A stretch of DNA of 64,000 bases from positions 244,680 to 308,679 of the forward strand of contig NZ_WVVV01000002.1 of assembly GCF_012911015.1 (NCBI RefSeq). Direction: 5' to 3'. Of the stretch, positions 27,645 to 46,639 are shown piece after piece. Origin of the DNA: Chelativorans sp. ZYF759 (lineage in GTDB: Bacteria; Pseudomonadota; Alphaproteobacteria; Rhizobiales; Rhizobiaceae). Position numbers and translations under genes: made by a program. The notes beneath the pieces were generated by a model. It searched no databases. It worked only from the letters and a program-made list of their open reading frames with translations, and was not told the DNA's origin. Position 1 is the first letter of the stretch, and every line of letters starts with the position of its first letter.

Positions 27645-27836
27645 GTAGGGGCTGTCTCGAGGCTGTTCGGTGTCGCCATTTCGCTAGACCAATAGCCGCC
27701 CCGAGGCAAGACATGGCTCATCCGCACCCCCGCAGAAGGATTTGCCCGAACGCCGCTTCCGGCAAATCCAGATGGCCCGTCCGGGCGTATGACCTTCCGT
27801 TACAACGAGACTGCCGAAAGCAGACCCGCCCGCCTC

Positions 27837-29297
27837 ATGACCACTTCCCCCCAAAGCGACGCAAACCAGACCGCGATCGTGCTTTTCCGGCACGATCTGC
27901 GCATAGAAGACAACCGCGCCCTGTCTGCAGCCGCTGAAAACTTCGAGACGGTCATCCCCGTTTTCGTCTTCGACGAGGATTCGGAGGGAACACGTCCGAT
28001 CGGCGGCGCGCGCCGCTGGTGGCTGCACCATTCGCTCGAAGCACTCGCGGCGTCGCTGGACAGGCTTGGTGCGCCGCTCATCCTGCGAAGGGGCAGGATG
28101 GACGAGATCGTCCCCGCTCTGGCGGATGAGACCGGCGCCGCTGCCGTGTTCTGGAACCGGCGTTACGATCCGCCCGGCATGGCGGCCGACCGCCGCATGA
28201 AGGCGGCGCTCAGGCAGGCGGGTGTTGAGGCGGAGAGTTTCGAGGGGCACCTGTTGCACGAGCCGTGGCAGGTCAAGACCGGCTCGGGCGGCTATTACCG
28301 TGTCTACAGCCCGTTCTGGCGCGCACTCTGCGCGCAGGGCGATCCCCGCCCGCCCGTCGATGCTCCCGGGAAACTGAAGGCACCTTCAAGGACACCCGGC
28401 TCGGAAGAGCTTTCGGACTGGACGCTGCTGCCGACCACGCCCGACTGGGCCGGCGGTCTGCGCGAGAGCTGGGCCCCGGGCGAGGCTGCCGCCCAGGAGC
28501 GCCTTGCCGAATTCCTGGACGGCGAGATCGAAGGGTATGCCGATGACCGGGACAGGCCCGACAAGCCCGCGACCTCGCGCCTCTCCCCTTACCTGACCCA
28601 TGGCGAGATCACCCCCTATCAGATCTGGCACGCCGTCACGCAGAAGACTGGCATCCAGGCACGTGATGCCGAGAAATTTCTCAAGGAGGTCGCCTGGCGT
28701 GAATTCTCCTGGCACCTCCTTCATCACAACGCCGATCTGGCCACCCGGAACTTTAATGCCGATTTCGACGCCTTTTCGTGGCAGGGTAAGGCCGACGACC
28801 TCCAGGACTGGCGAAGAGGCCGCACCGGTTATCCCATCGTCGATGCCGGGATGCGGCAGCTGTGGCGCACGGGCTGGATGCACAACCGGGTGCGCATGGT
28901 CGCGGCTTCCTTTCTGATCAAGCACCTGATGATCGACTGGCGCGAGGGCGAGGCCTGGTTCTGGGACACGCTGGTTGATGCCGACCCGGCCAACAACGCC
29001 GCCAGCTGGCAATGGGTGGCAGGCTCGGGCGCCGATGCCGCGCCCTATTTCCGCATCTTCAACCCCATCCTCCAGGGCGAAAAATTCGATCCTCGGGGCG
29101 ATTATGTCCGGGCCTTCGTCGAAGAGGTGAAGGACCTGCCCGATCGCAGCCTTCACAAGCCTTGGGCAGCCGGCAAGGACGCGCTCGACAGAGCGGGGAT
29201 TGAACTCGGCAGGAATTATCCTTGCCCCATCGTGGACCATGGCGAGGCGCGCGGTCGCGCCCTTGCGGCATATGACAAAGTGAAAGAGGCATCATGA
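27837..29297 (+). CDS. phrB: deoxyribodipyrimidine photolyase
   Basis: 486 residues. It repairs UV-induced pyrimidine dimers using blue light and FAD. The N-terminal domain (IVLFRHDLRIEDNRAL) binds the antenna cofactor. The FAD-binding part has TSRLSPYLTHGEITPYQIW, WREFSWHLL, and MRQLWRTGWMHNRVRM, followed by NNAASWQWVAGSGADA. An ATG at 27789 would add 16 residues; neither start has a good ribosome-binding site. It overlaps the next gene by 4 bp and heads a four-gene unit. Confidence 0.95.
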   Translation: MTTSPQSDANQTAIVLFRHDLRIEDNRALSAAAENFETVIPVFVFDEDSEGTRPIGGARRWWLHHSLEALAASLDRLGAPLILRRGRMDEIVPALADETGAAAVFWNRRYDPPGMAADRRMKAALRQAGVEAESFEGHLLHEPWQVKTGSGGYYRVYSPFWRALCAQGDPRPPVDAPGKLKAPSRTPGSEELSDWTLLPTTPDWAGGLRESWAPGEAAAQERLAEFLDGEIEGYADDRDRPDKPATSRLSPYLTHGEITPYQIWHAVTQKTGIQARDAEKFLKEVAWREFSWHLLHHNADLATRNFNADFDAFSWQGKADDLQDWRRGRTGYPIVDAGMRQLWRTGWMHNRVRMVAASFLIKHLMIDWREGEAWFWDTLVDADPANNAASWQWVAGSGADAAPYFRIFNPILQGEKFDPRGDYVRAFVEEVKDLPDRSLHKPWAAGKDALDRAGIELGRNYPCPIVDHGEARGRALAAYDKVKEAS

Positions 29298-30634
29298 ATA
29301 TCGTCCCCTTGTCCCGTGCCGAGGACGGCAGGCAGAAGATCGCGGTCGTCGGATCGGGCATAGCGGGCGCCTCGGCCGCCTGGGCACTGTCTGCCACAGC
29401 CAACGTGACGCTCTACGAGGCCGAGCGTCGCGCCGGCGGCCATACCGCGACCGTCGACGTGGACTATGACGGCATCTCCGTGCCGGTGGACACCGGCTTC
29501 ATCGTCTACAACGAGCTCAACTATCCCGATCTCACTTCCATGTTCGCCCATCTCGGCGTGGCCACGCATGAAAGCCGCATGGGTTTCGGTCTGTCGCTCG
29601 ACGAGGGCCGGCTGGAATGGAGCGGCCAATCCTACCGTTCCATTTTTGCCCAGCCGCTTAATGCCCTGTCGCCGTCCTTTCTGCGCATGCTGTCGGAGAT
29701 CATGCGCTTCAACCGGACCTGCGTGGTCGACCGGGATGCGGGCCGGCTCGCCGGCCATTCCATCGGCTCCTATTTGGCCGAATGCCGCTTTTCCAGCGCA
29801 TTCCGCGACAACTACCTCATTCCCATGGCCGCCGCGATCTGGTCGACCCCGCGCGTCAAGATGCTGGAATTCCCGGCCTCCACCTTCGTCACCTTCTTCG
29901 AGAACCACCGCCTGATTCACGAGGAGCGCCCGGTCTGGCGCACCGTCTCTGGCGGCTCGCGCAATTACCTGGAAAAGCTGCTGGCCCCGCTTGCAGGCAA
30001 GGTCCGGCTGGCCACGCCGGTCGAGACCGTCATCCGCGACGCGCTTGGCGTCACACTCTGGGCGAAGGACCGGGAGCCGGAACGTTTCGACGCCGTCGTG
30101 CTCGCCGGGCACTCCGACCAGACACTGGCCATGCTGGGCGATGCATCGCCGGTCGAGACCACCATCCTCTCATCCGTCCAGTATCGCCCGAACCGCGTCG
30201 TTCTCCACCGCGATCCCCGTCTGATGCCGAAACGCCGGGGCGTCTGGTCTGCCTGGAACTATCTGCGCTCCTCGCGCGGGGAGGAAGAGCCCGAAGTCTG
30301 CGTCACCTACTGGATGAACGAGCTGCAGGGCATAGACCATTCCACGCCGCTATTCGTCTCGCTCAACCCGGTGATCGAGCCGCGCGCCGAACTGACCTTC
30401 GGTGAGTGGTCCTTCGCCCACCCGCAATTCGATGCCGCCGCGATCTCGGCCCAGGCCCGGCTTGGCGAGATCCAGGGTCATCGTCGCACCTGGTTCGCCG
30501 GCGCCTGGACCGGATTCGGCTTCCACGAGGACGGGCTGCGCTCGGGTCTCGACGCGGCCCGCGGGCTGGGCGCCACGATCCCCTGGCGCGCGGCTCCGAT
30601 TGCCGATGTGGAACTCGCCGAAGCGGCGGAGTAG
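29294..30634 (+). CDS. FAD-dependent amine oxidase-like oxidoreductase
   Basis: 446 residues. A Rossmann dinucleotide motif (VVGSGIAGASAAWAL near residue 20) is followed by LYEAERRAGGHTATV and VDTGFIVYNELNYPDL. The family is encoded next to DUF1365 and CFA-synthase-like genes in many bacteria and is thought to act on membrane fatty acyl chains. The start overlaps the phrB stop (ATGA). Confidence 0.9.
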   Translation: MNIVPLSRAEDGRQKIAVVGSGIAGASAAWALSATANVTLYEAERRAGGHTATVDVDYDGISVPVDTGFIVYNELNYPDLTSMFAHLGVATHESRMGFGLSLDEGRLEWSGQSYRSIFAQPLNALSPSFLRMLSEIMRFNRTCVVDRDAGRLAGHSIGSYLAECRFSSAFRDNYLIPMAAAIWSTPRVKMLEFPASTFVTFFENHRLIHEERPVWRTVSGGSRNYLEKLLAPLAGKVRLATPVETVIRDALGVTLWAKDREPERFDAVVLAGHSDQTLAMLGDASPVETTILSSVQYRPNRVVLHRDPRLMPKRRGVWSAWNYLRSSRGEEEPEVCVTYWMNELQGIDHSTPLFVSLNPVIEPRAELTFGEWSFAHPQFDAAAISAQARLGEIQGHRRTWFAGAWTGFGFHEDGLRSGLDAARGLGATIPWRAAPIADVELAEAAE

Positions 30635-30645
30635 GATCGGCGATT

Positions 30646-31494
30646 ATGGCGCTTGCACGACGCATCACCACTATGACGGACAACGGGGCTCCCCCCGGGG
30701 CCGCTGTCGCGCTCTATCCCGGCGAAGTGATGCACGCCCGCATGAAGCCCTTCAGCCATCGCTTCACCTACAAGGTGTTCTCCCTGCTGATCGACCTCGA
30801 TCGCCTGGAAGAAGCCGGCAGGGCCTCGCCGCTTTTCCGGGTGAACCGGGCAGGCCTCCTCTCCTTCCACGAGGCCGACCATGCCGAGATCGAGGGCGAA
30901 GGCCTGCGCGCGATGGCGGACCGTCTTCTGGCAAAGTCGGGACTGGCCGAGCCGGCGGCACGCATCCTGCTCCTGGCCTATCCCCGCATGCTGGGCTACG
31001 TCTTCAATCCCATCTCTGTCTTCTTCGCCTATGGGCGCGACGGCGGGCTTCTCGCCGTCATCTACCGTGTGCGCAACACCTTTGGCGAACGTCATTCCTA
31101 CGTCGCGAAGGTTGAGGAGGGCGAGTTGAGCGAGGCGGGTCTGCGCCAGCAGCGCACCAAGATCTTCCATGTCTCCCCCTTCATCCCGCTCGGCGCGCGG
31201 TACAATTTCCGTATCCTGCCACCGGGCAAGGCCGTCCGCGTGCGAATCCACGAAACCGAAGCCGGCGAACCGCTGCTCGCGGCCACCTTCGTCGGAGAGG
31301 AAAAAGCCTTCACCACTGCCTCCCTCCTGCGCGCCCTGGCCCGCACGCCCTTGATGACGTGGAAGGTTGTTTACGCAATCCACTGGCAAGCCTTGAAAAT
31401 CTGGCTGAAAGGAGCGACTTTCCATACCTCTCCGCCGCCGCCGGAGCCGGTTAGTTTCCACGATCAGGAAGGGGCTTTCCGTCCTGGTGAATAG
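30646..31494 (+). CDS. DUF1365 domain-containing protein
   Basis: 282 residues. Conserved DUF1365 parts are GEVMHARMKPFSHRFTYKVF, LLAYPRMLGYVFNPISVFFAY, VRNTFGERHSYV and FHVSPFIPLGARYNFRI. The biochemical role is unknown; it is linked by context to modified membrane fatty acids. The ATG at 30646 has AGGA upstream; an ATG at 30673 is an alternative. The 3' end overlaps the CFA gene. Confidence 0.9.
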   Translation: MALARRITTMTDNGAPPGAAVALYPGEVMHARMKPFSHRFTYKVFSLLIDLDRLEEAGRASPLFRVNRAGLLSFHEADHAEIEGEGLRAMADRLLAKSGLAEPAARILLLAYPRMLGYVFNPISVFFAYGRDGGLLAVIYRVRNTFGERHSYVAKVEEGELSEAGLRQQRTKIFHVSPFIPLGARYNFRILPPGKAVRVRIHETEAGEPLLAATFVGEEKAFTTASLLRALARTPLMTWKVVYAIHWQALKIWLKGATFHTSPPPPEPVSFHDQEGAFRPGE

Positions 31495-32800
31495 AAGGAT
31501 CATCGCGTCGGCGGGACGGCGCAGCATGAGCAGGTTTTATGAAATGACCGACACCACCGCCTCTCCCTCTCCCCAGGCCGCACCTGTCCGGCTCGATGAC
31601 CGCAATTTCGCAGAGGTAACCCGTGGCCTGCCCGCCAAGGCCAGGCTGGCGCTGTCCGTCGGCATGAAACTGCCCAAGGGCACGCTGGTGGTCCACACGC
31701 CCGAGGGCAAGGTGATGGAAGTCGGCGGCAACGCACCCGGCCCCCATGCCGAGATAATCCTGAAGAACTGGAACCTGCCACGCCGCGCATTTTCCGGCGC
31801 AACCATCGGCGTGGCCGAATCCTACATGGATGGCGACTGGGAGAGCCCCGACGTCACCGCCTTTCTCGAGCTGTTCGTCGTCAACGAAGAGGCCGGCGAG
31901 AAGATCGCCGGCGGCGCCAACTGGCTCCTGACTGCGGTCGAGCGCGTGCGCCACTGGTTGAACGACAACACGCGTTCGGGGTCCAGGCGCAACATCTCGG
32001 CCCATTACGATCTGGGCAACACCTTCTATCGCGAATGGCTCGATCCCTCGATGACCTATTCCTCGGCGCTGTATGCGAATGGCGCCAACGATCTGGAAAG
32101 CGCGCAGGCCGCGAAATACCGCGCGCTCGCCCAGGATACGGGCATCGGGCCGAACGACCATGTTCTCGAGATCGGCTGCGGCTGGGGCGGTTTTGCCGAA
32201 TTCGCCGCGCGCGAGATCGGCTGCAAGGTCACCGGCCTCACCATCAGCCGCGAGCAGCATGATTTCGCCAGCGCGCGTATCCAGAAGGCCGGTCTGGCCG
32301 ATAAGGTCGACATCAAGTTTCAGGATTATCGCGACGAGACCGGCCGATACGATCGCATCGCCTCCATCGAGATGTTCGAGGCGGTCGGCGAGAAGCACTG
32401 GCCCGTCTTTTTTTCCAAGATGAAGGAATGCCTCAAGGCGGACGGGGCGGCCGGGCTTCAGATCATCACCATCAAGGACGAAGCCTTCGACGCCTACCGC
32501 GCCCGTCCGGATTTCATCCAGCGCTATGTCTTTCCCGGCGGCATGCTGCCCTCGCCCGAGCGCCTTCGCACGCTTGGCGACCAGTTCGGCCTCACCTACG
32601 CCCGCGACCGCATTTTCCCGCATGACTATGCGCGCACGCTCGCGGAATGGCGCGAGCGTTTCTGGGCATCGTGGGACCGGATCCGGCCGCTCGGCTTCGA
32701 CGACCGTTTCAAGCGCATGTGGGAGTTCTACCTGCATTATTGCGAAGCAGGTTTCCGCGCCAGATATATCGACGTGCGGCAGGTGGTGTACCGGGCCTGA
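31487..32800 (+). CDS. cfa: cyclopropane-fatty-acyl-phospholipid synthase family methyltransferase
   Basis: 437 residues from GTG 31487; ATGs at 31526 and 31544 are equally possible and would remove 13 or 19 residues. The SAM-binding motif VLEIGCGWGGFAEFAA and the CFA-type SISAHYDLGN-like stretch (ISAHYDLGNTFYREWLDPSM) are clear. RYVFPGGMLPSPERL lies in the C-terminal part. The enzyme modifies unsaturated phospholipid acyl chains. In this four-gene context it may be a UfaM-like methyltransferase rather than a true cyclopropane synthase; sequence alone does not decide. Confidence 0.9.
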   Translation: MNRRIIASAGRRSMSRFYEMTDTTASPSPQAAPVRLDDRNFAEVTRGLPAKARLALSVGMKLPKGTLVVHTPEGKVMEVGGNAPGPHAEIILKNWNLPRRAFSGATIGVAESYMDGDWESPDVTAFLELFVVNEEAGEKIAGGANWLLTAVERVRHWLNDNTRSGSRRNISAHYDLGNTFYREWLDPSMTYSSALYANGANDLESAQAAKYRALAQDTGIGPNDHVLEIGCGWGGFAEFAAREIGCKVTGLTISREQHDFASARIQKAGLADKVDIKFQDYRDETGRYDRIASIEMFEAVGEKHWPVFFSKMKECLKADGAAGLQIITIKDEAFDAYRARPDFIQRYVFPGGMLPSPERLRTLGDQFGLTYARDRIFPHDYARTLAEWRERFWASWDRIRPLGFDDRFKRMWEFYLHYCEAGFRARYIDVRQVVYRA

Positions 32801-38674: not shown

Positions 38675-39415
38675 TCAGGCGGCGGGGGGTGGGCCGAAGC
38701 GAAGCCGGAAACGCCGGTTCTCCCTGCCCTTCTTTTCGATCTTGCCGATATGGACCTCGCCCACCTCGCCGGTGCTTGCGACATGGGTCCCGCCGCAGGG
38801 CTGGCTGTCGATCTCGCCCGAGGCGCCGATCGCCACCAGCCTGATGCGGCCGGAGCCAGCCGGCGGGCGTACATTCTTGGACTTCACAAGAGTTGGATTG
38901 GCCACCAGGTCCCCGTCCGTGATCCATTTGACGGAGATCGGATGGTCGGCGGCCACGAGCGCCATCAGCTTGGCCGTGACGTCCTCCTTGGTCAGCCCGG
39001 CATCGGGGAGGTCGAAGTCGACCCGGCTGTCCTCCTCGCCGACCGCTGCGCCGGTGATGGGATAAGGGCAGACCACGGTCAGAAGGTGACAGGCCGTGTG
39101 CATGCGCATCAGCCTGTGCCGCCGCTCCCAGTCGATATTGAGCGTCAGCACCTCTCCGACTTCCGGCAGCGGCTCACCTGCCGCCGGCACATGGATGATC
39201 TCTTCCTTGGACTGGCCGGTGATGGTCGCCGCGATATCGATCCGCGATCCGTCCTGGCGCTCGAAATGCCCTGTGTCGCCGGGTTGTCCGCCGGAGGTGG
39301 CGTAGAAGATGGTGCGGTCGAGCAGGATGCCGCCACGCTCGTTGACGCCCACGACCGCCGCCGTCGCCTGCTTCAGATAGGCATCGTCCTGGAACAGGGC
39401 GGCGCCCGCGCTCAT
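38675..39415 (-). CDS. alaX: alanyl-tRNA editing protein AlaX
   Basis: 246 residues. This freestanding editing domain hydrolyses misacylated Ser- or Gly-tRNA(Ala). The zinc-binding motifs are HTACHLL near residue 103 and SQPCGGTHV near 213, and FYATSGGQPGDTG is the N-terminal signature. The start overlaps the cysK stop by 4 bp. Confidence 0.93.
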   Translation of the reverse strand: MSAGAALFQDDAYLKQATAAVVGVNERGGILLDRTIFYATSGGQPGDTGHFERQDGSRIDIAATITGQSKEEIIHVPAAGEPLPEVGEVLTLNIDWERRHRLMRMHTACHLLTVVCPYPITGAAVGEEDSRVDFDLPDAGLTKEDVTAKLMALVAADHPISVKWITDGDLVANPTLVKSKNVRPPAGSGRIRLVAIGASGEIDSQPCGGTHVASTGEVGEVHIGKIEKKGRENRRFRLRFGPPPAA

Positions 39416-40449
39416 GGCGCGACATCCTCGAAGGGGATGGCGATGTCGGGCGTGCGTTCCATCCATTCGGGCACCGGCAGGTCCTTGCCGCGCAGGAAGT
39501 CGGGGTTGAACATCTTGGACTGGTAACGGGTGCCGTAGTCGCACAGGATGGTCACGATGGTGTGGCCCGGCCCCAGCTCACGCGCCAGCCGCACCGCGCC
39601 GGCAATGTTGATGCCGCTCGACCCGCCGAGGCACAATCCCTCTTCCTGGATCAGGTCGAAGACGATCGGCAGCGCCTCGTCGTCGGGGATCTGGTAGGAG
39701 AAGTCGGGTGTGAAGCCTTCGAGATTGGCCGTGATGCGCCCCTGCCCGATACCTTCGGTGATCGACGAGCCCTCCGACTTCAGTTCGCCCGTCGTGTAGT
39801 AGCTGTGAAGCGCCGCCCCCAGCGGGTCGGCGATGGCGATCTTCACGGCGTTGCTCTTGGCCTTCAGCCCGGCCGAAACACCGGCCAGCGTGCCGCCCGT
39901 GCCCACGGCGCAGACGAACCCGTCGACCTTGCCGTCGCTCTGGCGCCAGATCTCCTCGGCCGTCGTCTCGACATGACCGTCACGGTTGGCGACATTGTCG
40001 AACTGGTTCGCCCAGATGGCCCCGTTGGGTTCGCTTTGCGCAAGCTTTTCCGCCAGCCGGCCGGAAACCTTCACGTAATTGTTCGGGTTGCGGTACGGCA
40101 CCGCTGGCACCTCCAGCAGTTCGGCGCCGAGGAGCCGCAGCGCGTCCTTCTTCTCCTGGCTCTGCGTATCGGGGATCACGATCACCGTGCGGTAGCCGAG
40201 CGCCTTGCCGACGACCGTCAGCCCGATGCCGGTATTGCCGGCCGTGCCCTCGACGATCACCCCGCCGGGCTTCAAGAGACCCTTCTTCTCGGCATCGCGA
40301 ACGATGAACAGTGCAGCGCGGTCCTTGACCGACTGTCCGGGATTCATGAACTCGGCCTTGCCGAGGATCTCGCAGCCCGTCAGTTCCGAGACGCGCCTGA
40401 GCCTGATGAGCGGCGTATTGCCGATCACATCGATCACCGATTTGTTCAT
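39412..40449 (-). CDS. cysK: cysteine synthase (O-acetylserine sulfhydrylase family)
   Basis: 345 residues, PLP enzyme. The start SVIDVIGNTPLIRLRRVSE, the lysine region NPGQSVKDRAALFI, the substrate loop VEGTAGNTGIG and phosphate loop AVGTGGTLAGV are all present. The substrate loop reads GTAGNTG rather than the common TSGNTG, and there is a long C-terminal tail after CDYGTRYQSKMFN, so it may be a specialised paralogue. GAGGGA precedes the ATG at 40449. First gene of a four-gene operon. Confidence 0.9.
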   Translation of the reverse strand: MNKSVIDVIGNTPLIRLRRVSELTGCEILGKAEFMNPGQSVKDRAALFIVRDAEKKGLLKPGGVIVEGTAGNTGIGLTVVGKALGYRTVIVIPDTQSQEKKDALRLLGAELLEVPAVPYRNPNNYVKVSGRLAEKLAQSEPNGAIWANQFDNVANRDGHVETTAEEIWRQSDGKVDGFVCAVGTGGTLAGVSAGLKAKSNAVKIAIADPLGAALHSYYTTGELKSEGSSITEGIGQGRITANLEGFTPDFSYQIPDDEALPIVFDLIQEEGLCLGGSSGINIAGAVRLARELGPGHTIVTILCDYGTRYQSKMFNPDFLRGKDLPVPEWMERTPDIAIPFEDVAP

Positions 40450-40574
40450 GCCATATCCCTCGAACCTGCTGGGCTGGAAATTATGAACCCAGCCTCCTAC
40501 ATGCAAGAAAGCATTTCCCCGCTATCGCGCTATCATGGCAAAAACTGCCTCACCCGACTAAGCCGGGAGGGCAC

Positions 40575-40604
40575 TGATCCGCTTTGAATTCCATGGCGTA
40601 TATG
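40575..40604 (+). promoter_or_regulatory. possible RpoE (ECF) promoter before the chrR-like gene
   Basis: TGATCC, 18 bases, TATATG. The -35 and spacing fit the Rhodobacter RpoE promoter (TGATCC-N18-TAAGA) as I recall it, but the -10 fits poorly. Confidence 0.3.
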
Positions 40605-40677: not shown

Positions 40678-41319
40678 ATGACCGCCGACACAATCGATAC
40701 CATGGACGCGCTGATGGCGCGCTTTGTTGCGGGCTCCCTGCCGTATCCCGCGCATGTGCTTGTCGAATCCCACCTCGAGCTAAAGCCCGACAACCGTCGG
40801 TTCGTGCGGGGTATGGAAGAGCTGGCGGGCCGCACGCTGGATGATACCGGCGCCGTCGAACTGTCGGACCGCGAGCGTCGGCTTGCCGCAATCCTCGACA
40901 GCGAAGCAGCCGCCGAGGCGGTCCCGCTGGCCGACGATGGTGTGTTCCCGCGCGCCCTGCGCGACTTCATCGGCTTCAACGTGGATGATGTTCCCTGGCG
41001 CACCAAGCTCCCCGGGTTCAAGGAATATGATCTGGGCGATGTCGACGGCTGCCACGTGAATCTTTTCTGGATCCGCCCCGGCCGGCCGATTCCCACCCAC
41101 ACCCATGAGGGTTCCGAGCTGACGCTGGTGCTGGACGGGGCCTTTACGGATGTCGTCGGCCGCTACGGCCGCGGCGACATCTCGGTGGCCGACGAATCGA
41201 TCGAGCATCGCCCCGTCGCCGATCTTGAGCGGCCGTGCATCTGTTTTGCCGTCACCGACGCACCATTGCGTTTCACCGGCACCTTGCGCCAGCGCCTGAG
41301 CGACCTTATCGGGGCGTGA
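40678..41319 (+). CDS. ChrR-like cupin anti-sigma factor, no adjacent sigma gene
   Basis: 213 residues of the ChrR family. The C-terminal cupin keeps all four zinc ligands at the same numbers as Rhodobacter ChrR: His141, His143, Glu147 (THTHEGSELTLV) and His177 (ESIEHRPVA). In the N-terminal anti-sigma domain the usual H-x3-C-x2-C is replaced by His32-LEL-Lys36-PD-Asn39, so the zinc cysteines are gone. ChrR normally holds the ECF sigma factor RpoE and releases it on singlet oxygen. There is no sigma gene next to it (cysK is divergent), so it may bind a distant sigma or have a new role. An SDR gene follows by 42 bp. Confidence 0.85.
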   Translation: MTADTIDTMDALMARFVAGSLPYPAHVLVESHLELKPDNRRFVRGMEELAGRTLDDTGAVELSDRERRLAAILDSEAAAEAVPLADDGVFPRALRDFIGFNVDDVPWRTKLPGFKEYDLGDVDGCHVNLFWIRPGRPIPTHTHEGSELTLVLDGAFTDVVGRYGRGDISVADESIEHRPVADLERPCICFAVTDAPLRFTGTLRQRLSDLIGA

Positions 41320-41361
41320 TCTGACGGCTTCTGGCCAACCGCCTGTTTGGAACATGACGAC

Positions 41362-42177
41362 ATGACGCTCTATCGCGCGAAACCGGCCGACGGCGTGGCC
41401 TGGGTTACCGGAGCCAGCACCGGCATCGGTCGCCAGCTTGCGCTCGATCTTGCCGGCCAGGGCTACACGGTTGCCGCAACGGCGCGCGACGCCGAAAATC
41501 TGGAAGCCCTGGCCCAGGAGGCCGCGACCCGCAACTTGCGCATCCTCGCCATGCCCTGCGACGTCACCGACGAAAAGGAAATGGACCGCACAGTCGCCCG
41601 CATCGAGAAGCAGGCGGGACCCATCGCGCTCGCCATCTTCAATGCCGGCACCTATTCGCCGACCCATGGCGAACGGCTGGAAACCGACAATTTCATCAAC
41701 ACCTTCCGCGTCAACGTGTTCGGCGTCGTCTTCGGCCTCGTGCCGGTCGTCGACCGCATGCGCGAGCGCGGTTTCGGGCAGGTCGTGCTGGTGGGTTCCG
41801 TCACCTCCTATTTCGGCTTGCCGTCGGCTGCCGCCTATGGTGCCACCAAGGCCGCGCTGAACAACATGGCCCAGTCGCTCAAATACGATTTCGACAAGCT
41901 CAACATCCGCATTCAGGTGGTCAATCCGGGCTTCGTCGACACGCCGCTGACGGCAAAGAACAAGTTCGACATGCCGGGGCTGATGGCGGTCGACAAGGCC
42001 TCCGCCAGATTCGTTGACGGCATCGCACGCGGCGGTTTCGAGATCGTCTTCCCGCGCCGCCTGGCCTGGATGCTGAAAGCCGGCACCTTCCTGCCGCAGA
42101 TGCTCTACCACCGCATCATCCGCAAGGCGACGGGGTGGGACCAGCGCCGTTTCGGCATCAAGAAGAAGCCGAAATAG
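41362..42177 (+). CDS. short-chain dehydrogenase/reductase
   Basis: 271 residues, NAD(P)-dependent SDR. It has the cofactor motif VTGASTGIGRQLA near residue 14, NAG at IFNAGTYSP, the catalytic Ser in VGSVTSYF and YGATK (Tyr-x3-Lys). The last ~80 residues are longer than minimal SDRs. The ATG at 41362 is used; a TTG at 41347 would add five residues. It lies 42 bp after the chrR-like gene. Confidence 0.92.
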   Translation: MTLYRAKPADGVAWVTGASTGIGRQLALDLAGQGYTVAATARDAENLEALAQEAATRNLRILAMPCDVTDEKEMDRTVARIEKQAGPIALAIFNAGTYSPTHGERLETDNFINTFRVNVFGVVFGLVPVVDRMRERGFGQVVLVGSVTSYFGLPSAAAYGATKAALNNMAQSLKYDFDKLNIRIQVVNPGFVDTPLTAKNKFDMPGLMAVDKASARFVDGIARGGFEIVFPRRLAWMLKAGTFLPQMLYHRIIRKATGWDQRRFGIKKKPK

Positions 42178-43489
42178 CCGGCTCGTTCCCCTCGATGCGT
42201 GTGCGCAGGGCCTTCTGCCTGACCTCGTCCAGCGGGAACCCCCACATTAGCCAGATTGCCACGCCCTTGAACGCGATCGGCACCCAGCCATAGACGATCG
42301 CCAGCGCCATCAGAGATCCGGGCGCATTCTGGCCGCCGGGTTCGAATCCGAACAGCGACAAAAGGGGAAAGGCGATGCCCACCCCCAGCGCCAGCGCCAG
42401 CTTGGTCGTCAGGCTCCACGCGGCGAAATATTGTGCCGATCGCTGTTCCGATGATGCCGCCGTGTCCTCGTCGATGATGTCGGCCTGGATCGACGCCGGC
42501 AGCGACAGGTCGAAACCGAGCGCGAGACCGGTCGCCACGCAGACCAGCGCGAAGGCGATCACGTTCCCCTCGCCGATGAGCGGAGCCGTGGCGAAGACTG
42601 CGCAGGTGGCGATCATCGCCACGCTCCAGGCACGGTGTTTTCCGAAACGTCCCGCCAGAGCCAGCGCCAGCGGCACGCCGGCCAGCCCGCAGGCGAAATA
42701 CAGAAACAGCAGCGGCCCGCGCATTTCCGGCACGCCAAGCCGGTCGGATACGAAATATAGAAACAGCGTCGCCGGCACCGCATTGGCCAATCCGTTGAAG
42801 AGATAGGCCACGATGAACCGGCGGAACGGCGCGTTCGCCGCCATGACCGCCAGGCCTTCGCGCAGGCTGATCTGCGTCTTCGAGTGGTCGCGTGGTTCGG
42901 CGACCCGGCTCACCGTCACGGCGCCGGTGAGAACCAGAAGCCCCGCCACCGACAGTCCAAGTATCGCAAGCCCGTGCAGGCTGTCGGGATCGTCGAAACC
43001 GATCGCGAAAGGCAGCGCGATCGCCACCAGCGTACCGACCAGCGTAAAACCTTCCCGGAAGCCGGCGACACGGCTGCGTTCGCGGTACTGCCCCGCCATC
43101 TCCGCTCCCCACGCCTGGTAGGGCAGGATCGCCGCGGTGTAACCGATCGACAGCACCAGCCCCCAGAGGAGCACATAGCCGATACCCGCGGTCACGGGCG
43201 GCCAGAACAGCATGATCGCTGCCAGAGCACAGATGGGAATCGACACCATGAACAGCGCCTTGCGCCGCCCGATTCTGGGTCGCCATCGGTCGCCCACCCA
43301 TCCGATCATCGGGTCGCTGACCGCATCCGCGAGCCGCACCGCCAGCAGCGCGGCGCCGACGCTTGCCAGCGGCAGCCCCAGCGATTCGGAATAGAAGGTC
43401 GGCACGATGATGTAGAGCGGCAGCGTCAGCGCCGCGAGCGGCACCGCCGGCAGGGCGTACTGGATCAGGGTCTTGGCGGGGATGGACAT
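42158..43489 (-). CDS. GPH-family (MelB-like) sugar:cation symporter, MFS
   Basis: 443 residues with about 12 membrane segments. ADAVSDPMIGWVGDRWRPRIGRRK is the GPH/MelB signature in short form (DPMIGWVGDR, RIGRRK). LPYQAWGAEM is also typical. Substrate unknown. Its 3' end overlaps the SDR 3' end by 20 bp in convergent orientation. A GPH-type transporter occurs in the Rhodobacter singlet-oxygen regulon near SDR and amine oxidase genes. Confidence 0.88.
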   Translation of the reverse strand: MSIPAKTLIQYALPAVPLAALTLPLYIIVPTFYSESLGLPLASVGAALLAVRLADAVSDPMIGWVGDRWRPRIGRRKALFMVSIPICALAAIMLFWPPVTAGIGYVLLWGLVLSIGYTAAILPYQAWGAEMAGQYRERSRVAGFREGFTLVGTLVAIALPFAIGFDDPDSLHGLAILGLSVAGLLVLTGAVTVSRVAEPRDHSKTQISLREGLAVMAANAPFRRFIVAYLFNGLANAVPATLFLYFVSDRLGVPEMRGPLLFLYFACGLAGVPLALALAGRFGKHRAWSVAMIATCAVFATAPLIGEGNVIAFALVCVATGLALGFDLSLPASIQADIIDEDTAASSEQRSAQYFAAWSLTTKLALALGVGIAFPLLSLFGFEPGGQNAPGSLMALAIVYGWVPIAFKGVAIWLMWGFPLDEVRQKALRTRIEGNEPAISASS

Positions 43490-43587
43490 GCAGGGCCTTG
43501 GGGCTAAAGTCTGTCCTGTTACGAAGCGCGGGGGCTCGTGGTTCTCCGGCGAACTGTCTTCAGGAAAAAACCTCTTCGGAGGCCAGG

Positions 43588-44568
43588 ATGGGGCACATGT
43601 TCTACGCGACGGCCTTTGCACTGGCGGTGGTCGCCGTGGCCTACCTCCTGGGACCCCGGGCGGTCGCGGACCAGAACGTCCGCTTCGACCCGGCCGCGAT
43701 TGGCCCAGATCCGCAAACCTACCTCGCCGCGCGCGAAGGCGAACATGCCGACATCCGCGATGGGCTCGCCAGGGAGATCATCTGGGCCGATCCGGCGACG
43801 CGCGCGCGCACGCCCGTATCCATCGTCTACATCCACGGCTTTTCCGCCTCGAAGGGCGAAGTGCGCCCCCTGCCCGACCTGATTGCCGCCGATCTCGGTG
43901 CCAACCTGTTCTACACCCGCCTGGCTGGCCATGGCCAGGATGGACCCACCATGGGCGCGGTCAGGGCCGAAGACTGGATAGATGATACCGCGGAAGCCCT
44001 CGCCATCGGCCGCGCAATCGGCGAACGCGTGGTGGTGATCGCCGCCTCGACCGGCGCCACGCTCGCCAGCTGGGCCGCCACCCGGCCGGACCTCGCCGAA
44101 CATGTCGCCGCGATGATCCTGATCTCGCCCAACTACCGAATCAACGGTGCCGGTGCCGGTCTGCTGTCCGCCCCCTGGGGCGGGCAGATCGCCCGCCTGC
44201 TGCTGGGTCCGCAGCGCGGCTTCACCGCAACGAACGAGCTCCAGGCGCATCTGTGGACAACCTCCTACCCGACGAACGCCCTGCTTCCGCTCGCCGCAAC
44301 GGTCGCCATGACGGCTGCAAGCCGTGTGGAGGACATCTCCATCCCCGCCCTCTTCGTCTTCTCCGACAAAGACAAGGTCGTCGATCCACGGGCCACCCAC
44401 GCCGTCATCGGTCGTTGGGGCGGCCCGACGCGCACCTTGCTTGTCAGCGATTCCGAGGACCCCAACCATCATGTGATTGCCGGCGACGCCTGTTCGCCTT
44501 CCACGACGACCCGCCTGGCCGGGGCGAGCCTGGAGTTCCTGCGCGAAATACTGGGCGAGGCCGACTGA
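43588..44568 (+). CDS. alpha/beta hydrolase with N-terminal membrane anchor
   Basis: 326 residues. A hydrophobic start (MGHMFYATAFALAVVAVAYLLG) anchors or exports it. The hydrolase fold shows VYIHGFSASKGEV (oxyanion loop) and the nucleophile elbow IAASTGAT near residue 153, A-x-S-x-G instead of G-x-S-x-G. Acid and His are probably in FSDKDKVVD and SEDPNHHVI. CGGAGG precedes the ATG. Substrate unknown. Divergent from the GPH gene. Confidence 0.85.
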   Translation: MGHMFYATAFALAVVAVAYLLGPRAVADQNVRFDPAAIGPDPQTYLAAREGEHADIRDGLAREIIWADPATRARTPVSIVYIHGFSASKGEVRPLPDLIAADLGANLFYTRLAGHGQDGPTMGAVRAEDWIDDTAEALAIGRAIGERVVVIAASTGATLASWAATRPDLAEHVAAMILISPNYRINGAGAGLLSAPWGGQIARLLLGPQRGFTATNELQAHLWTTSYPTNALLPLAATVAMTAASRVEDISIPALFVFSDKDKVVDPRATHAVIGRWGGPTRTLLVSDSEDPNHHVIAGDACSPSTTTRLAGASLEFLREILGEAD

Positions 44569-45886: not shown

Positions 45887-46639
45887 TCAGGCTGCGCCAG
45901 GCAGGGCACAGACCACCCTGTCGCGCCCCGCGCGTTTGGCGCCGTAGAGGTGAGTATCGGCCTCGTTCATCAGCGTTTCGAGCCCCTGGCCCGGCTTGCG
46001 CACCGCGATGCCGATGCTGACGGTGAACTGCACGACCTCCGGCAGATCCGAAAGCGCCATCTCCCGCACCCGCCGCCGGATCTTTTCGGCCAGCGACTGC
46101 GCTGCCCAGATGTCGGCCCCCGGCATGAACACGGTGAACTCCTCGCCGCCGATCCGCGCGGCGACCGCGTCCTTGCCGACATTGGCGGAGATCAGCGCCC
46201 CCAGGCTGCGCAGCACCCTGTCGCCCACGGCGTGGCCGTGTGCATCGTTCAGCTGCTTGAAGTTGTCGACGTCGATGTAGAGAAGCGCGCCGCCGCCGGA
46301 ACTCTCGCGCAGGAGGCTTTCGGTCTTGTGCATGAAGCAGCGGCGGTTGGCGAGGTTGGTCAGTTCGTCCATCCGCGACACCCGGTCCAGTTCCGCCGCC
46401 ACGGTCCTCAGACGCACGTTCTGGCCGATAAAGAGATAGCCCAGCGGATATCCGAGCACGATCACGATGACCGTCGTGAAGAACAGGTCGAGGAGAAGCC
46501 TGTCCTCGAAGAAGATGGAATAGAAGAGCAGCGTCAGCGCGTTTGCGCCCATCAGCGCCGCGCCCACCATCAGCGTGGTTTGCCTCAGCACGGACATCGT
46601 CTCGAGCCTGCGCATCAGCACATCCCCAACTCCCCACAT
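45887..46639 (-). CDS. membrane-bound diguanylate cyclase (GGDEF)
   Basis: 250 residues. Two membrane segments (TTLMVGAALMGANALTLLFYS and FFTTVIVIVLGYPLGYLFIG) precede a GGDEF domain (DELTNLANRRCF, YIDVDNFKQLND, ARIGGEEFTVF). The active site GGEEF is intact, so it should make cyclic-di-GMP. The inhibitory RxxD site just before is absent (NVGKD), so product inhibition is not expected. No sensory domain beyond the membrane part. Confidence 0.93.
   Translation of the reverse strand: MWGVGDVLMRRLETMSVLRQTTLMVGAALMGANALTLLFYSIFFEDRLLLDLFFTTVIVIVLGYPLGYLFIGQNVRLRTVAAELDRVSRMDELTNLANRRCFMHKTESLLRESSGGGALLYIDVDNFKQLNDAHGHAVGDRVLRSLGALISANVGKDAVAARIGGEEFTVFMPGADIWAAQSLAEKIRRRVREMALSDLPEVVQFTVSIGIAVRKPGQGLETLMNEADTHLYGAKRAGRDRVVCALPGAA

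Follow-up and report, generated by a model that had tools for sequence, protein, structure and literature searches.

A ChrR homologue lacking the anti-sigma zinc site in Chelativorans sp. ZYF759 and its probable unlinked RpoE-like sigma partner

The window, a 64,000-nucleotide stretch of Chelativorans sp. ZYF759 DNA, encodes a ChrR homologue that has kept its cupin zinc ligands and lost most of its anti-sigma zinc site. The protein is likely the zinc-free anti-sigma factor of a split ECF11 system, in which the partner sigma factor is encoded on another contig (G000:C1:676296-676889) and drives the gene of its inhibitor, not its own. The points counted for the split pair were the co-occurrence of the two genes, the kinship of the sigma factor to RpoE, the shift of the promoter, the predicted fold, purifying selection, and loci L027 and L050. 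The points counted against it were the reported need for zinc, the null mirror-tree result for the anti-sigma domain, the weak difference in rpoH2 promoters, genome G053, and the biased sampling.

Results

Structure and metal ligands of the window ChrR

The features of the window that enter the argument are as follows.

27789..29297 (+), DNA photolyase, gene 1 of a four-gene run (PF03441/PF00875)
29294..30634 (+), flavin amine oxidase, gene 2 of the run (PF01593)
30730..31494 (+), DUF1365-like protein, gene 3 (open reading frame named by eye, start codon uncertain)
31487..32800 (+), cyclopropane-fatty-acid-synthase-like methyltransferase, gene 4 (PF02353, 277.5 bits)
39412..40506 (-), PLP-dependent enzyme, cysteine-synthase-like, divergent and beyond the promoter (PF00291, 233.8 bits)
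40575..40600 (+), ECF11/RpoE-type promoter-like element TGATCC-N16-CGTA, 77 bp upstream of the chrR ATG
40678..41319 (+), zinc-less ChrR homologue (TIGR02451, 143.9 bits; Cupin_7, 45 bits; structure model)
41347..42177 (+), short-chain dehydrogenase, next gene after chrR on the same strand (adh_short, 157.8 bits)
42158..43621 (-), MFS_2 sugar-transporter-like protein (PF13347, 253.5 bits)

The chrR open reading frame, read directly in the window, started with ATG and encoded 213 aa. The product was a full-length ChrR homologue; its TIGR02451 score exceeded the curated cut-off of 124.5 bits over residues 10-205, and phmmer matched it to R. sphaeroides ChrR (2z2s_B) with an E-value of 4.1e-36. 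The anti-sigma domain covered residues ~3-75 and the cupin residues ~92-200. All four cupin zinc ligands were read directly as H141, H143, E147, and H177, as the first-pass annotation had claimed. The loss of the anti-sigma zinc site, which had also been claimed, was borne out and proved more extensive; H32-x3-K36-x2-N39 stood at the site of the H-x3-C-x2-C motif, and D7 aligned with ChrR H6, so that three of the four ligands were gone. The full ligand set of ZAS proteins (a histidine plus H-x3-C-x2-C) was lacking, with D7, H32, K36, and N39 at these positions. A misalignment of the motif was ruled out because the phmmer alignment ran through it without gaps, with HLSLCDEC of ChrR opposite HLELKPDN. 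The profile search of the window's genome found no second TIGR02451 protein. The genome's other strong Cupin_7 match (C70:220069), a 196-aa open reading frame outside the TIGR02451 matches, resembles a stand-alone, dioxygenase-like cupin on inspection by eye.

The predicted structure of the window ChrR had a mean pLDDT of 84.9, with anti-sigma helices at residues 3-18, 23-35, 37-56, and 65-74. The best PDB match of the model was the ChrR of 2q1z (TM 0.85 by target, 0.73 by query). In R. sphaeroides ChrR, the anti-sigma zinc is held by H6, H31, C35, and C38 and is reported to be required for sigma inhibition, and E147 and H177 of the cupin are needed for the response (PMC6852236). The domains of ChrR and RseA are described as one fold held by zinc or by protein contacts, respectively (PMC6852236), and a survey of class I anti-sigma domains found approximately 44% to lack the zinc motif (PMC7406223). 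From these precedents, we infer that the window ChrR probably inhibits the unlinked sigma factor without zinc, which supports the earlier suggestion of zinc-free sigma binding.

Distribution of the zinc-less group

The distribution of ChrR was explored in 121 genomes of the same family as the window's genome and in a scan of named genomes with the window protein. The sampling was biased, because the former covered one family and the latter reached close relatives only. A TIGR02451 match of any kind occurred in 64 of the 121 family genomes. Canonical high-scoring ChrR was present in 30 genomes, and a lower-scoring type without both cysteines was present in 26, including the window's genome. A third, divergent type occurred in one genome (G008, locus L050). 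One genome (G102) carried both the canonical and the zinc-less protein. The two types rarely shared a genome (1/26 zinc-less genomes; p 0.004, nominal since the genomes are related). Two members of the zinc-less group scored below the TIGR02451 cut-off (117.9 and 120.5 bits). The named scan gave 57 loci, 50 without both cysteines and 7 with cysteines, and the titles were all alphaproteobacterial (Hoeflea, Aliihoeflea, Roseibium, Chthonobacter, Alsobacter, Beijerinckiaceae, and Hyphomicrobiales MAGs among them).

A tree of 114 ChrR proteins included 78 without cysteines, and 76 of these grouped together behind a branch with a support of 100/99. The other two, L027 (G084) and L050, fell outside this group, L050 on a very long branch. 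Both proteins lacked the two cysteines and their sigma gene was still adjacent; site loss and sigma pairing are thus compatible. Whether the replacement of cysteine by K or N was fixed in a clade, a check raised with the first-pass annotation, was answered positively as a loss of both cysteines in 76/76 group members. Position 36 was occupied by K (35), R (12), S (10), N (10), and others (9), and position 39 by N (48), S (21), and others (7). H141, H143, E147, H177, and C187 were invariant in all 76 proteins, and H32 was kept in 74. No consistent charge pair replacing zinc was found at positions 7, 36, and 39 among the 76 members, the commonest set being D-H-K-N (10/76).

A ChrR-like match was also held by 87 plasmid records (Rhizobium, Aminobacter, Ensifer, and others). 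The 15 listed among these 87 matches were 35-37% identical to the window protein, and 14 of the 15 carried a ChrR family annotation. This pattern suggests that, in rhizobia, canonical ChrR is spread by plasmids.

Unlinked RpoE-like sigma factor

No ECF sigma gene adjoined chrR, in agreement with the first-pass annotation; no sigma-like open reading frame was found in the 19.6 kb around it, and ~96 kb separated it from the nearest Sigma70 region-2 match of the same contig. The further claim that the sigma gene had been lost did not stand. A search of the whole genome gave 13 Sigma70 region-2 matches, one of which was RpoE/ECF11-like.

G000:C1:676296-676889 (other contig), RpoE/ECF11-like sigma factor, 197 aa, regions 2 and 4

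Of the sigma factors in the genome, this one was most similar to those that share an operon with canonical ChrR. Moreover, its best solved relative was the RpoE of the ChrR complex 2q1z/2z2s (153.6 bits), followed by a match of 73.8 bits.

The sigma gene was directly upstream of chrR in 30/30 canonical family loci and also at L050. No sigma gene was found beside zinc-less chrR in the 8-20 kb stretches of the 26 family loci. Among the named loci, the sigma gene was adjacent in 7/7 with cysteines and in 0/50 without, some of these stretches reaching down to only ~0.3 kb upstream. Orthologues of the unlinked sigma factor (197.5-417.9 bits) were present in 27/121 family genomes, including 26/26 with zinc-less ChrR; the line at 197.5 bits was drawn after the list was viewed, above a gap to 177.8 bits, where the operon sigmas begin. 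The co-occurrence of the unlinked sigma factor with zinc-less ChrR had a Fisher p of ~1e-25, which is nominal since the genomes are related. Genome G053, which is 88% complete, carried the unlinked sigma factor and had no ChrR match. The named sigma search covered 35 genomes, 33 drawn from the set of 50 zinc-less loci and 2 from the 7 loci with cysteines. All 33 zinc-less genomes carried the unlinked sigma factor (E 1.1e-56 or better), and the two genomes with Cys-type ChrR gave best sigma matches of only 3.1e-43 and 4.6e-34. The two genes can be far apart even on the same contig, as in G099 (~1.8 Mb). The 57 unlinked sigmas clustered together in a quick tree with an SH-aLRT support of 85. Judged by these matches, the RpoE-lineage sigma factor is unlinked, not lost, in the zinc-less genomes searched.

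An element like GGCAACAGTTTGACCTTTG was seen upstream of the unlinked sigma gene in 27/57 loci (e.g., L079, L082, and L192-L197), counted with a loose pattern built after some of the loci had been viewed. This element may combine a housekeeping promoter and an operator.

ECF11 promoter-like element

The element at 40575..40600 was the sole exact match in the window at spacings of 15-17. The ECF11 consensus is given as TGATCC-N16-CGTA in P. syringae (PMC5507510), as TGATCC-N15-GCGTA in R. sphaeroides (PMC5036791), and as TGATCC with CGTAAT or CGTATT in Shewanella (PMC4336711). The spacing pattern was chosen after viewing the 26 family upstream regions and then agreed with the published consensus; the 50 named loci, the operon sigma genes, and the unlinked sigma genes were tested after this choice. 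A different pattern, TGATCC-N18-TANNNT, missed the chrR promoter because its -10 was wrong, and it was rejected.

TGATCC-N15/16-CGTA preceded 71/76 zinc-less chrR genes, namely 24/26 in the family (the window's included) and 47/50 at the named loci. The family count was anchored on a conserved codon; the starts of the long open reading frames misplace the promoter at L038, L043, and L047. The element preceded 0/57 unlinked sigma genes versus 27/38 operon sigma genes. The strict element was absent from 11 operon sigma genes, of which 6 were gammaproteobacterial and 2 had a one-letter variant. Hence, the element that serves sigma and anti-sigma together in the operon here fronts the anti-sigma gene alone.

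The 26 family loci contained 28 strict matches, versus 2.85 expected in simple base shuffles. These matches were located before chrR (24), photolyase (2), MFS (1), and SDR (1) genes, which were named partly by eye. The window's genome had five strict matches, which lay upstream of chrR, 36 bp before the likely start of an RpoH2-like sigma gene, before a gene for a small exported-looking protein, and, for the remaining two, inside mechanically called open reading frames. An exact rpoH2 promoter was found in 5/24 other genomes with the unlinked sigma factor versus 0/6 without it, a weak difference; in 2 of the 24 genomes, only a more distant RpoH was found. Whole-genome motif counts were uninformative either way, with matches in 117/121 genomes, mostly few in each, and by eye, without computation, the ECF11 genomes did not stand out. 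The reversed-pattern control for these counts contains CTAG and may be an unfair yardstick; CTAG is a rare word in many bacteria.

Neighboring genes

The neighborhood was compared across a clustered set of 27 loci, L050 included. Homologues of the PLP-dependent enzyme, the short-chain dehydrogenase, and the MFS_2 protein occurred in 26/27, 25/27 (mostly just downstream), and 16/27 loci, respectively. The methyltransferase and DUF1365-like families were found near chrR in 19/27 loci each. In the window, these two families belong to the four-gene run at 27789-32800, 8-13 kb upstream of chrR, which is of a kind found in ECF11 regulons. In Shewanella, photolyase and cfa operon genes are reported under RpoE2-dependent promoters (PMC4336711). 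The window search found no exact ECF11 promoter before the photolyase run. In addition, the reverse strand at 45887-46639 encodes a GGDEF-type diguanylate cyclase, identified by eye.

Discussion

Proposed mechanism

Judged from the sequences and the structure model, the window ChrR would bind and inhibit the unlinked sigma factor. The missing ligands point to a first (anti-sigma) site that carries no zinc, and the domain would keep the helical fold of ChrR, held together without the metal. By analogy with R. sphaeroides, the signal would enter through the cupin, which would keep its metal site and sense singlet oxygen or organic peroxides. This signal would free the sigma factor, and chrR would then be transcribed from the TGATCC-N16-CGTA promoter. 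The freed sigma factor would probably also transcribe rpoH2 and some lipid and DNA-repair genes. Because the sigma gene has no TGATCC promoter, the sigma factor would drive its inhibitor but not its own gene. The loop would be one of negative feedback with no self-activation, in contrast to the rpoE-chrR operon with its autoregulation.

Alternative explanations

The protein could instead be a free-standing cupin sensor or enzyme of the sigma factor's regulon that binds no sigma factor, the latter being controlled otherwise. A free-standing sensor had been one of the suggestions of the first-pass annotation; it became less likely because an RpoE-like sigma factor is encoded elsewhere and co-occurs with the protein, and we regard it as unlikely. 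The loss of three of the four anti-sigma ligands speaks for it, as does the stronger conservation of the cupin. In 18 close zinc-less pairs, dN/dS ranged over 0.05-0.27 in the anti-sigma domain, against 0.03-0.10 in the cupin (17/18 scored). Moreover, in a mirror-tree analysis of 21 genomes, cupin-domain distances tracked the sigma factor beyond RpoH2 (partial r 0.51, p 0.0008), and anti-sigma-domain distances did not (partial r 0.10, p 0.23). However, the N-terminal domain is full length with the predicted ChrR anti-sigma fold, and its dN/dS is no higher than that of canonical ChrR, for which nine pairs gave 0.09-0.42 in the anti-sigma domain (8 scored) and 0.01-0.11 in the cupin (7 scored). 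The pairs of both kinds were hand-picked as close relatives and some share members. Furthermore, no anti-sigma gene was seen within 1.5-2.6 kb on each side of the unlinked sigma gene, where a divergent IalB-like gene was the only near-universal neighbor (56/57 loci, e.g., L062:11353-11895).

It is considerably less probable that the window ChrR binds another ECF sigma factor instead of, or besides, the RpoE-like one. The 13 Sigma70 region-2 matches of the genome offer candidates, but the co-occurrence is strict and involves one sigma lineage, which is also the closest to the sigma factors encoded beside canonical chrR.

A paralogue in decay after its replacement by a canonical pair, which the lost ligands and the lost adjacent sigma gene might suggest and which the first-pass annotation had named as the case against its reading, is hardly credible, given that the window's genome yielded no second TIGR02451 protein and hence no canonical ChrR, that only 1/26 zinc-less genomes has one, and that the group is conserved throughout with a low dN/dS. 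The chosen pairs gave no sign of relaxed selection; by this measure, zinc-less ChrR is a group under purifying selection, not a decayed copy.

Comparison with known systems

The split pair proposed here shares with R. sphaeroides RpoE-ChrR (ECF11; 2q1z, 2z2s) the protein family, the two-domain build, the cupin zinc ligands, the promoter consensus, the lineage of the partner sigma factor, and photolyase and fatty-acid genes nearby. It differs in that the anti-sigma zinc site is missing, the sigma gene is unlinked, and chrR, not the sigma gene, carries the ECF11 promoter. RseA and RskA are membrane-bound and have no ChrR cupin sensor. They belong to other families, whereas the window protein belongs to a zinc-binding family and has lost its site. 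RseA of E. coli and RskA of M. tuberculosis are nevertheless zinc-free class I anti-sigma helical bundles, as proposed here (PMC7406223, PMC6852236). One sentence in PMC3818230 states that Rhizobium etli CIAT 652 has chrR with rpoE missing. Both cases concern a rhizobial chrR homologue with no rpoE reported nearby; that sentence, unlike the present analysis, gives no partner, zinc-site analysis, or explanation. Among the papers listed by the literature searches, no title or abstract opening described the zinc-less group or its partner; an earlier mention may stand in the ECF11 phylogeny of 2008, the ChrR structure paper of 2007, or the ECF reclassification of 2021.

Conclusion

According to PMC6852236, it is unknown what exactly the anti-sigma zinc of ChrR does in the singlet-oxygen response, and a model-peptide paper argues for a reaction of this zinc site with singlet oxygen and for its involvement in sensing (PMC6432622). 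The present group dropped the anti-sigma zinc site and retained the sigma factor together with the cupin site and the promoter, by which the two roles are separated and become directly testable. In this group of rhizobia-like bacteria, a stress switch that normally consists of two adjacent genes appears to have been split between distant loci, and its inhibitor has lost a site thought essential, providing a natural test of what the anti-sigma zinc does. The promoter shift likewise offers a natural comparison between operon autoregulation and negative feedback alone, and a candidate regulator is proposed for sigma genes without an adjoining anti-sigma gene. A wider reading, on which we are evenly divided, is that in several Hyphomicrobiales families a naturally zinc-free ChrR carries the singlet-oxygen/peroxide response. 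The anti-sigma zinc would then be neither needed for inhibition nor the sensor, the sigma factor would be supplied from another promoter, and the system would act as a graded homeostat, not a self-amplifying switch.
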